The position numbers and the translations under genes are program-made. 64,000 nucleotides of DNA from positions 1-64,000 of the forward strand of contig NZ_NFLJ01000002.1 in the NCBI RefSeq assembly GCF_002160865.1. Reading direction: 5' to 3'. This DNA is from Massiliimicrobium timonense. GTDB lineage: Bacteria > Bacillota_I > Bacilli_A > Erysipelotrichales > Coprobacillaceae. The notes under the pieces were generated by a model. It saw nothing but the letters and a program-made list of their open reading frames with translations, was not told the DNA's origin and made no database searches. Position 1 is the first letter of the stretch. The number at the start of each line of letters is the position of its first letter. Of this stretch, positions 61,182 through 63,899 are shown piece after piece.

Positions 61182-61613
61182 ATGGAAAAAAAGTTAACGT
61201 TAAAACAAAAGGATTATATTGTTAGAAAGATTTATAAAACATATCAAAAGGCACAATTGGATATATTATATTTAACACAACATTATAATTACTATCCACA
61301 AGTGGATATGTTTAAAGTGAAAGATTCTTCGACTGTTTATCATGGAGATGAAAAAATGGTACAACAAATAGAACGTAAACAGCGTTTAGAAAATTATGTT
61401 GAGATGATTCATCAGGTACATACACATTTATCTCATGAAACTTATGATTTTATTGAACATGAATATATTAATTATTATGAATCTTCATGGTGGATGACAT
61501 TTTATTCACGTGCCAGTTATTATCGTTTAAAGCATAGAGCTTTAGATGAGTTTATGGATTGTATTTCTATTTTTTGGAGTGAAGAAGATATTTTATCTTT
61601 ATTAGACGCATAG
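61182..61613 (+). CDS. MG284/MPN403 family protein
   Basis: A 143-residue soluble protein with helical pattern LTLKQKDYIVRKIYKTYQKAQLDILYLTQ and a C-terminal YYESSWWMTFYSRASYYRLKHRALDEFMDCI helix that resembles a sigma region 4 or helix-turn-helix. It matches the family known from mollicutes and Erysipelotrichia as MG284/MPN403-type proteins, whose function is unknown. The Shine-Dalgarno AGGAGGG is inside a hairpin (61135-61181), so translation may be controlled. Confidence 0.75.
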   Translation: MEKKLTLKQKDYIVRKIYKTYQKAQLDILYLTQHYNYYPQVDMFKVKDSSTVYHGDEKMVQQIERKQRLENYVEMIHQVHTHLSHETYDFIEHEYINYYESSWWMTFYSRASYYRLKHRALDEFMDCISIFWSEEDILSLLDA

Positions 61614-61676
61614 TTTTGTCAAAAACAATAGAAAAATACTTTTTTATCTTATACAATGAGTATAAGAGGTGATTCT

Positions 61677-62501
61677 ATGTTTGATGGATTGTTGTTGATA
61701 TTGGCATTCTTTGCGGGTATTTTAGGTACTTTTATAGGTGGAACACAAACTTTTATATGTACTGGTTTTATTGGTATTGTTGTGGCTATTGTACAGGCAT
61801 GTGGTGGAGATATTTCTTTTTTAGAACCTTATATTTTAAATGGTTTGTTTTTACCATGTATTATTTTTAATGGGTCAGTTGTAGCAACGGCTGTAGCTTC
61901 ACACTACAATGAGAAAATACGTGGGTTTGAAACAGGACGTTCATTGGCTTTTATTCAAGATACGAGAATTTTATTGGCTGGAGGATTGGCTGGTGTTGCA
62001 GGATATTTGATTTATGCAGTGGCCTTGTATTATGATTTTCCTATTGATCAAGGGGCTTTATCAGTTGTTATCATTGGTGTGCTTGCACGTTTAGTTTTGA
62101 ATCAGGAACAGTTTATGAATAAATCTTCTTTACTATTTTTAAAAACACGTTCTATTAATTACTGGGGTTATCAGCTTTTGTTTGCTTTAGCGATTTCATT
62201 TTGCATGGGAGTTATTGTCAAATATACAGGATTATATACAATAGGTTTTTCAATCAGTGCCTTTTCTTTAATTTTTGCGTTGATTGATGGCTCTTTTCCA
62301 GCAACACATCATATCACGCTCGTCGCTGGGTATGCCTACTGGCAGACACAAAGTATGGTTTTATGCTTGATTTTTGGTTTATTGGCTCATCTTATTGGAT
62401 TGTTGTTTAGTTATGTGTTTAATTTGGAATGTGGAACACATGTTGATCCACCAGCTGTAGCGATTGGGTCATTAAGTTTAGTGATTTTTACTTTGTTTTA
62501 G
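61677..62501 (+). CDS. Multi-pass membrane protein of unknown function
   Basis: A 274-residue protein with about seven to eight membrane helices (for example LLLILAFFAGILGTFIGG, LNGLFLPCIIFNGSVVATAVA, GGLAGVAGYLIYAVALYY and YQLLFALAISFCMGVIV). There are no long loops, and Gly-rich helices suggest a channel or permease. The ATG at 61677 was chosen for AAGAGGTGATT; a frame to 61656 lacks one. CinA follows 12 bp later. No family is named with confidence. Confidence 0.8.
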   Translation: MFDGLLLILAFFAGILGTFIGGTQTFICTGFIGIVVAIVQACGGDISFLEPYILNGLFLPCIIFNGSVVATAVASHYNEKIRGFETGRSLAFIQDTRILLAGGLAGVAGYLIYAVALYYDFPIDQGALSVVIIGVLARLVLNQEQFMNKSSLLFLKTRSINYWGYQLLFALAISFCMGVIVKYTGLYTIGFSISAFSLIFALIDGSFPATHHITLVAGYAYWQTQSMVLCLIFGLLAHLIGLLFSYVFNLECGTHVDPPAVAIGSLSLVIFTLF

Positions 62502-62513
62502 GAGGAAGTTTTT

Positions 62514-63566
62514 GTGAATGTAGAAATTATCAATGTAGGAACAGAATTGTTGTTGGGAGAAATTGTGAATACCAATGCCACACTTTTACAAAAGGTATGC
62601 AAAGATTTAGGATTTAATGTGTATTATCAAAGTGTTGTGGGTGATAATCCTCAAAGACTCTATGATTGCTTAAAAGTGGCTTTTGAGCGTGGTGCTGATT
62701 GTGTGATGACAACAGGAGGGCTTGGTCCAACAACAGATGATTTAACAAAAGAATTGTCAGCTCAATATCTTGGGTTGGAAATGGTTTATAATAAACAGGA
62801 AGCACAAAAGGTTGAGCAGAAGTGTCGTTATTGTACAGGCGTTGATCAGGTCCCTGACAATAATTTTAAGCAGGCTTATTATCCTCGAGATGCTTATATT
62901 TTAGAAAATGATATGGGGACAGCCAATGGCTGTGTCATGAGTGATGGTCAACATATGATTATTAATTTACCTGGACCACCAAAGGAATTAAAATATGTTG
63001 TTGAACATTCTTTAATTCCTTATTTGGAATCAATGAAACAAGATACCATCTATACTTATGAGTATTTAACGATGTTTATTGGTGAAAGTAAGATTGATGA
63101 AGTGTTAAGAGATCTGATTGAAGATCAAAATCAAGTTTCGATTGCACTGTATGCTGGAGAGGAAACGGTTCGTATTCGTTTGGCTGTTAAAGCATCTTCT
63201 CAAGAAGTGGCTGATGCCTTGATGAAAGATGTTCAATGTGAAATTGAAAAACGTTTAGCTTCTTATATTATTCATGAAAAGAATTTAAAAGAAGCAATAT
63301 TAAAAGAAAAACCATCACTTTGGATTTGTTATGAAAATGATTTTCGTTTTCAAGATGAGTGGTTATCGCCATTCATTCAAAAAGAAGGTGATATTCATAT
63401 TGTTGTGAAAATAAGACAGGAAAAGCTAGGAGAAGTTGTTTGTATAACGATCAATGATGAATATTTTGAAGTTCCTACTTTTGTGAAGGCACATTATTCT
63501 TATGCGAAAGTAGAAGCCAGATTTGTTGGAAAGCTGTATCAATATATAATGACACATAAAAAGTAA
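62514..63566 (+). CDS. CinA-like protein with divergent C-terminal domain
   Basis: A 350-residue protein starting with GTG behind AGGAGGAAG. The N-terminal MoaB/MogA-like domain (about 1-165) is well conserved: INVGTELLLGEIVNTNATLLQK, TTGGLGPTTDDLTKE and NLPGPPKELKYV. The middle part (about 170-260) has the usual CinA linker domain. The C-terminal domain should be the PncC-type NMN deamidase with an AESCTGG motif, but here it reads LKEKPSLWICYENDFRFQ and lacks the Ser-Cys-Thr-Gly-Gly core, so deamidase activity is probably lost. The N-terminal domain is an ADP-ribose pyrophosphatase in other CinA proteins. Confidence 0.88.
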   Translation: MNVEIINVGTELLLGEIVNTNATLLQKVCKDLGFNVYYQSVVGDNPQRLYDCLKVAFERGADCVMTTGGLGPTTDDLTKELSAQYLGLEMVYNKQEAQKVEQKCRYCTGVDQVPDNNFKQAYYPRDAYILENDMGTANGCVMSDGQHMIINLPGPPKELKYVVEHSLIPYLESMKQDTIYTYEYLTMFIGESKIDEVLRDLIEDQNQVSIALYAGEETVRIRLAVKASSQEVADALMKDVQCEIEKRLASYIIHEKNLKEAILKEKPSLWICYENDFRFQDEWLSPFIQKEGDIHIVVKIRQEKLGEVVCITINDEYFEVPTFVKAHYSYAKVEARFVGKLYQYIMTHKK

Positions 63567-63606
63567 AAATATGGTACTTTTGAAATCTATTCCTATGTTT
63601 GTGGTA

Positions 63607-63620
63607 TGCAATCGCTTACA
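63607..63620 (+). promoter_or_regulatory. cre-like site (CcpA) upstream of the RNA candidate
   Basis: TGCAATCGCTTACA matches the relaxed CcpA consensus TGNAANCGNNNNCA. It lies 68 bp upstream of the -35 of the RNA gene. A single match can be chance. Confidence 0.35.
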
Positions 63621-63674
63621 ATGCGATAAAAATAAAAAAACATTGATAAAATCAACATATTTTTTATTTTTTAC

Positions 63675-63899
63675 TTGCGAATATTAAGACTTTATATATA
63701 ATAGGAGATGTCCTCAAGGACAACGTGTATATCATATCATAATATTCCTCGATATACATATGAAGCAAAAGTATTCATATAATTTACTCAAAGAGATCCC
63801 TGCTAGAGGCAGCAGACTAGCAGATAAATAGTGAACAGCAGCACTATGGATCATTATAAGAAAAGAGCGATATTTCAGGGTATATCGCTCTTTTCTTAT
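63675..63899 (+). ncRNA. Candidate structured small RNA with own promoter and terminator (unknown class)
   Basis: A promoter (TTGCGA 63675-63680, 16-bp spacer, TATAAT 63697-63702) is followed by about 190 nt without a credible reading frame. The predicted stems are: TGTCC/GGACA (63709-63722, loop TCAA); TGTATATC/GATATACA (63726-63758); TTCATAT with ATATGAA (63758-63780); and a three-way junction 63795-63852 closed by GATCC/GGATC, with arms CTGCTAG/CTAGCAG and ATAGTG/CACTAT. Then comes an 18-bp terminator (63856-63899). AGCAG occurs three times and can pair with CTGCT. It is not 6S, SRP RNA, tmRNA or RNase P by the motifs I know. No gene follows on the plus strand, so it is probably trans-acting. 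Confidence 0.6.
63856..63899. terminator. Long bidirectional terminator shared by the RNA and the LysR-type gene
   Basis: An 18-bp stem: arm 63856-63873 (core AAGAAAAGAGCGATAT) pairs with 63882-63899 (core ATATCGCTCTTTTCTT), loop of 8 nt. The stop codon of the minus-strand gene lies in the right arm. Confidence 0.9.

Follow-up and report, generated by a model that had tools for sequence, protein, structure and literature searches.

A new small RNA family of Massilimicrobiota and relatives that displays two CAGCAG octaloops on a three-way junction

A predicted transcription unit between two convergent genes

Does the 330-bp intergenic stretch between a cinA-like gene and a convergent lysR-type gene encode an RNA of its own and, if so, is that RNA a leader, a by-product of the gene before it or an independent regulator? 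Within the 64,000-nucleotide stretch of DNA that we analysed (the window), this interval holds a promoter, a structured RNA and a terminator, with the following features.

62514-63566, + strand: cinA-like gene, with the Pfam domains MoCF_biosynth and CinA_KH
63675-63702, + strand: sigma-70 type promoter TTGCGA-16-TATAAT (-35 at 63675-63680, 16 nt, -10 at 63697-63702)
63707-63899, + strand: predicted sRNA transcript of about 190 nt, based on promoter and terminator positions, homologues and fold z-score
63709-63722, + strand: 5′-terminal hairpin UGUCC/GGACA, from fold and alignment (weak in homologue L064)
63726-63758, + strand: AU-rich hairpin UGUAUAUC/GAUAUACA, in which one pair covaries from A-U to G-C
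63795-63852, + strand: three-way junction, from covariation in 14 sequences and from single-sequence folds
63856-63899, + strand: terminator hairpin of 18 bp (63856-63873 paired with 63882-63899)
63896-63898, strand opposite the RNA: stop codon of the convergent lysR-type gene

The original prediction had proposed an RNA with its own promoter and an 18-bp terminator, and we find both in the places it gave. The -10 element is invariant across the homologues compared, and we set the transcript start by distance, 5-8 nt past it. A simple scan overlooks the terminator on account of the AT-rich stem and the loop of 8 nt, but folding reveals it; it probably serves both the RNA and the convergent lysR gene. 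Compared with dinucleotide shuffles, the whole RNA folds with z = -6.3 when the terminator is included and z = -2.7 without it. Several small reading frames of 10-40 amino acids lie inside the RNA, none of which is conserved among the homologues compared, where indels break the frames. The unit thus has the properties of a trans-acting sRNA gene, namely its own promoter, its own terminator and no conserved ORF (in homologues L066 and L068 the terminator is cut off or damaged). The next gene on the + strand, which is purA-like, sits past the convergent lysR gene, which bears out the initial view that the RNA is not a leader.

Distribution in the family and absence from Rfam

A nucleotide search found copies that are 75-92% identical in four genera. 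We built a covariance model, R1, from eight homologues, and it matched 14 of 43 genomes of the bacterial family (Coprobacillaceae-type), belonging to 7 of 20 genera, with E-values from 3e-25 to 2e-5, and gave no genome a second strong match. Presence is all-or-none by genus, save for the incomplete genome G001, in which the RNA is absent and cinA was likewise not found. A model of the junction only, R3, recovered the same 14 genomes (E-values 1e-16 to 6e-11) and nothing else credible across the genomes of the family; its weak matches in other genera (L110-L115) have no twin CAGCAG loops, and most of them resemble coding sequence. No carrier outside the family appeared in 315 genomes of the order searched with R1 or in 395 of the class searched with R3, both under stricter filters. 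Among 84,980 named species genomes, a pattern scan picked out 25 places; six of them are the RNA according to the model (in Massilimicrobiota, Stoquefichus, Longibaculum and an uncultured Erysipelotrichaceae bacterium), and the other 19 are at background level. Viral contigs gave no match.

The RNA had been called undescribed, with 6S and raiA named among the families to be excluded, and this description stands: no Rfam 15 family, raiA included, matched the window at its gathering cut-off, and at permissive thresholds the best sub-threshold matches fall on the terminator hairpin or far under the cut-off. 6S RNA (RF00013) does not match at the locus; the 6S RNA of this genome lies at C47:25817-25977, with 53.5 bits. 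The papers that we searched describe no regulatory sRNA in the family of these gut bacteria, although the motif lists of large surveys (e.g. PMC8040213) may contain an earlier prediction without a name. The RNA represents a new sRNA family, previously uncatalogued and outside Rfam, of a known kind of RNA.

Genomic context of a stand-alone gene

In 10 of the 14 genomes, which represent six genera, cinA precedes the RNA. This association is what speaks for a cis-acting element, be it a leader, an attenuator, a riboswitch or a mere 3′ UTR of cinA, even though in two genera a small extra gene lies in between. The RNA has its own conserved promoter and strong terminator, however, and the genes downstream vary: the convergent lysR gene, gntR, a DUF-like gene or an ABC transporter. 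Moreover, the copy in genus g8 has no cinA upstream but follows an Mrr-type endonuclease gene (Pfam, Mrr-like), and next to this Mrr-like gene lies one that we take to be luxS. Together with the RNA, some 130 bp of sequence ahead of the -10 has been carried to the g8 locus, comprising the upstream block, the operator and the A-tract/TGATAAAA segment described below. As the g8 locus is different and has its own promoter region, the RNA is a stand-alone gene and not part of a neighbouring operon, and we regard a cis-acting role as highly improbable. In RNA-less relatives from genera g3, g12 and g14, cinA and lysR almost touch.

The small gene mentioned above (about 80-90 amino acids, of the MKYKIENCRYELVKDLL... 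type) lies between cinA and the RNA in L063 and L065, and a gene of the same type is directly 3′ of cinA in g8. Upstream of cinA in the window, the ORFs 61674-62498 (membrane-like, about 275 amino acids) and 61182-61610 (143 amino acids) have no Pfam match.

A conserved three-way junction with twin octaloops

The original prediction included a junction closed by GATCC/GGATC with two arms, which we confirm. Its parts are as follows.

63795-63799 and 63848-63852: closing stem GATCC/GGATC
63800-63823, + strand: arm A
63828-63847, + strand: arm B
63808-63815, + strand: octaloop A, GGCAGCAG; NNCAGCAG in arm A of 14/14 homologues
63834-63841, + strand: octaloop B, AACAGCAG; NNCAGCAG in arm B of 13/14 homologues, AAGCAGCA in L065

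In a cloverleaf-like fold, the six letters CAGCAG are displayed in both loops. The 8-nt loops conform to NNCAGCAG in 27 of the 28 arms of the 14 homologues, with AAGCAGCA as the sole exception, while the stems beneath them differ nearly completely across genera. Both octaloops of the g8 RNA read GUCAGCAG. Loops that stay constant while their stems drift suggest that a partner recognises them.

Covariation analysis within the family had been suggested as a check, and among the 14 homologues the RNA is conserved with covariation. In the 14-sequence alignment, which was fitted to the structure and hence leans towards it, 92.9% of cells in the junction pair (77.7% in shuffles), two-sided changes number 42 (14.3 in shuffles), and the covariation score reaches 0.472, as against 0.219 for shuffles and no more than 0.104 for slid controls. 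Because of this bias, we also made a manual alignment with one or two sequences from each genus, and found compensatory changes between genera in 13 of 19 junction pairs, discounting one base that neighbouring stems have in common in the L065 and L070 rows. When nine homologues were folded singly, with no alignment, eight gave the same three-way junction with two hairpin loops; the remaining one, L063, kept both arms without the closing stem. The junction by itself has z = -3.3 against dinucleotide shuffles.

Outside the junction, the UGUCC hairpin and the AU-rich hairpin are mostly conserved among homologues, and the linker AAAAGUAUUCAUAUAA is unpaired and conserved in the closer relatives. 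The count of at least five stems in the original prediction is right, but one of these, a hairpin near 63758-63780 in the fold, is not conserved. The terminator loop (63874-63881) has a G-tract, from GGG to GGGGG, in 13 of 14 homologues, a feature absent from the loops of the 12 other terminators that we found in the window; the G-rich loop may be a second contact site. Taken as a whole, the RNA is more than a chance fold and is a real small RNA gene of Massilimicrobiota and relatives.

The sequence of this species also allows a conformational switch, in which CTGCT would pair with alternative copies of AGCAG, as was proposed at the outset. The elements are indeed there, CTGCT once and AGCAG three times within the RNA. 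However, the 5′ strand of arm A reads CTGTT, CTATT, TTATT or TTAAT in relatives instead of CTGCT, and the third AGCAG (63819-63823), which is the 3′ strand of arm A, is replaced by AACAG, AATGG, AGTAA, AATAA and others. With both CTGCT and the third AGCAG confined to this species, most genera cannot form the alternative pairing. The other two AGCAG copies, which are conserved, belong to the loops and are unpaired in each homologue's fold, and the junction is the single minimum-free-energy fold in nearly all of them, with an ensemble frequency of up to 0.74. We consider a switch the least probable of the readings discussed here.

An operator at fixed spacing upstream of the promoter

Upstream of the -35 element, three further features are conserved.

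63572-63601, + strand: conserved block GGTAYTTTTaAAAAnnTATTCCTATnTTT, from an ungapped alignment anchored on the -10
63607-63620, + strand: cre-like, CcpA-type operator TGCAATCGCTTACA, in 14/14 homologues
63636-63655, + strand: A-tract plus ATTGATAAAA motif between the operator and the -35, also upstream of rRNA operon promoters

The cre-like site, which had been noted in the original prediction and falls just left of the interval considered there (63675-63899), is real and present upstream of the -35 in all 14 homologues, with the palindrome consensus TGnAAnnGyTTwCA. A cre-like palindrome by itself is not rarer than chance, with 0.42 expected per 64-kb window. What is surprising is its conservation and spacing. 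In the alignment anchored on the -10, the operator is 82% identical and the adjoining spacer 34%, and the distance from the operator to the -10 is 90 bp in 12 homologues, 91 bp in L069 and, by hand count, 89 bp in L070. The 30-bp upstream block keeps the same place in all homologues except L070.

Every RNA-bearing genome encodes a CcpA-like protein (best TIGR01481 E-values about 1e-79 to 1e-75, under the curated cut-off), and CcpA control of the RNA gene is likely. The centre of the palindrome is CG in this species and in L057, and AG or TG in the remaining homologues. Variation at the centre has been documented for CcpA sites (PMC5263246); as the operator mostly does not have a central CG, another LacI-family protein could bind instead. 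In Bacillus subtilis, a cre upstream of the -35 as a rule means activation by CcpA, in a helix-face-dependent manner (PMC3463425), and by this rule our guess for the sign of control would be activation.

As to the third feature, the motif AAAAACATTGATAAAATCAA (63636-63655) occurs in 17 copies in the genome at up to 2 mismatches, compared with one in the reversed control. Copies (among them those at L041, L042, L049, L053 and L056) precede the promoters of three rRNA operons and of two other genes, and some further copies are terminator stems. The motif, which resembles an IHF-type site, may act in the bacterial family as an UP-like element or as a bend upstream of promoters.

That the A-tract/TGATAAAA motif is common to the promoter of the RNA and to three rRNA promoters could suggest a lineage-specific RNA of the housekeeping type, 6S-like or ribosome-associated. 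In addition, the CAGCAG loops resemble two segments of 16S rRNA (the 338 and 515 regions), and in this species the local identity to 16S extends to GAGGCAGCAG. However, relatives do not keep this longer match; all that is common across the family is CAGCAG, so we regard the 16S likeness of the loops as coincidence. The genuine 6S RNA is encoded elsewhere in the genome, and many related genera do without the RNA, which together make a housekeeping role improbable.

A proposed carbon-regulated RNA acting through its loops

We propose, with moderate confidence, that the locus encodes a stand-alone, carbon-regulated sRNA of about 190 nt, outside Rfam, that acts in trans through twin recognition loops. 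The structure, its conservation, the stand-alone module and the fixed-spacing operator are read from sequence; transcription, the direction of CcpA control, base-pairing and targets are what we infer. Transcription would begin just past the sigma-70 promoter and end at the 18-bp terminator. The operator, 89-91 bp ahead of the -10, is probably bound by a CcpA-like regulator, which would most likely activate transcription on a preferred sugar, in concert with the upstream block and the A-tract/TGATAAAA segment. The predicted junction would then present two near-identical octaloops, NNCAGCAG, which most likely recognise target RNAs by pairing with CUGCUG stretches; the G-rich loop of the terminator might make a second target contact.

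The seeds of many Gram-positive sRNAs complement the Shine-Dalgarno sequence, but CAGCAG does not, which counts against pairing. A target search in the RNA's own genome for GGAGG followed by CTGCTG gave two matches and one in the control, neither of the two being obviously at a gene start.

The loops might instead bind a protein. A decoy modelled on CsrB-like RNAs or on the EutX and Rli55 ANTAR sponges would use its twin CAGCAG octaloops to bind a dimeric RNA-binding regulator and titrate it off mRNAs, and the appearance of the same loop twice at a fixed geometry, its letters invariant above drifting stems and in g8 identical in both arms (GUCAGCAG), is consistent with such a role. We know of no protein that recognises CAGCAG octaloops, however, and CsrA would require GGA in the loops. 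ANTAR proteins, the obvious binders of dual hairpins, are absent from 13 of the 14 RNA-bearing genomes, PF03861 being found in only 1 of 14 carriers, and we rejected an ANTAR target RNA as an identification. Such targets consist of two hairpins with hexaloops that have A at position 1 and G at position 4 (PMC3369931). Trimmed to six nucleotides, the NNCAGCAG loops have the G at the fourth position, but their first position varies between G, A and U, so that the A needed by ANTAR proteins (PMC3369931) is not kept. A decoy is accordingly a tentative reading. More doubtful still is that the RNA forms a new protein-binding type, in which the junction would fix the angle of the two CAGCAG octaloops for a dimeric protein and synthesis would be linked to carbon supply. 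As putative modes of action, we rank base-pairing with CUGCUG-bearing RNAs first and protein titration by the twin loops second.

The locus offers an RNA with good covariation support, a clean presence or absence by genus, one short invariant motif shown twice and a promoter that points to carbon catabolite control. The partner of the RNA and its role in sugar use are thereby directly testable.

Comparison with known systems

RsaI of Staphylococcus aureus is likewise a stand-alone Gram-positive sRNA tied to CcpA and glucose (PMC9266662), a link to CcpA that is inferred for the RNA described here, and it pairs with mRNAs and with other sRNAs (PMC9266662). However, RsaI is 111 nt long and repressed by CcpA, whereas here the operator lies far upstream and activation is expected; nor is there a detectable sequence relation between the two, our RNA having no Rfam match. 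The 6S RNA of lactic acid bacteria is likewise non-coding and has a cre ahead of its promoter (PMC8414754), but that cre overlaps the -35 and represses (PMC8414754). In addition, 6S RNA folds into one long bulged hairpin and is a separate gene in this genome. The ANTAR dual-hairpin RNAs EutX and Rli55 similarly place two hairpins side by side, with loops that resemble each other, and can serve as a protein sponge (PMC3369931), whereas the RNA described here has octaloops instead of hexaloops and hairpins joined in a three-way junction. The region upstream of the RNA is alike in architecture to CcpA-activated promoters of B. subtilis such as that of ackA, where an additional conserved block ahead of the cre is required (PMC3463425).
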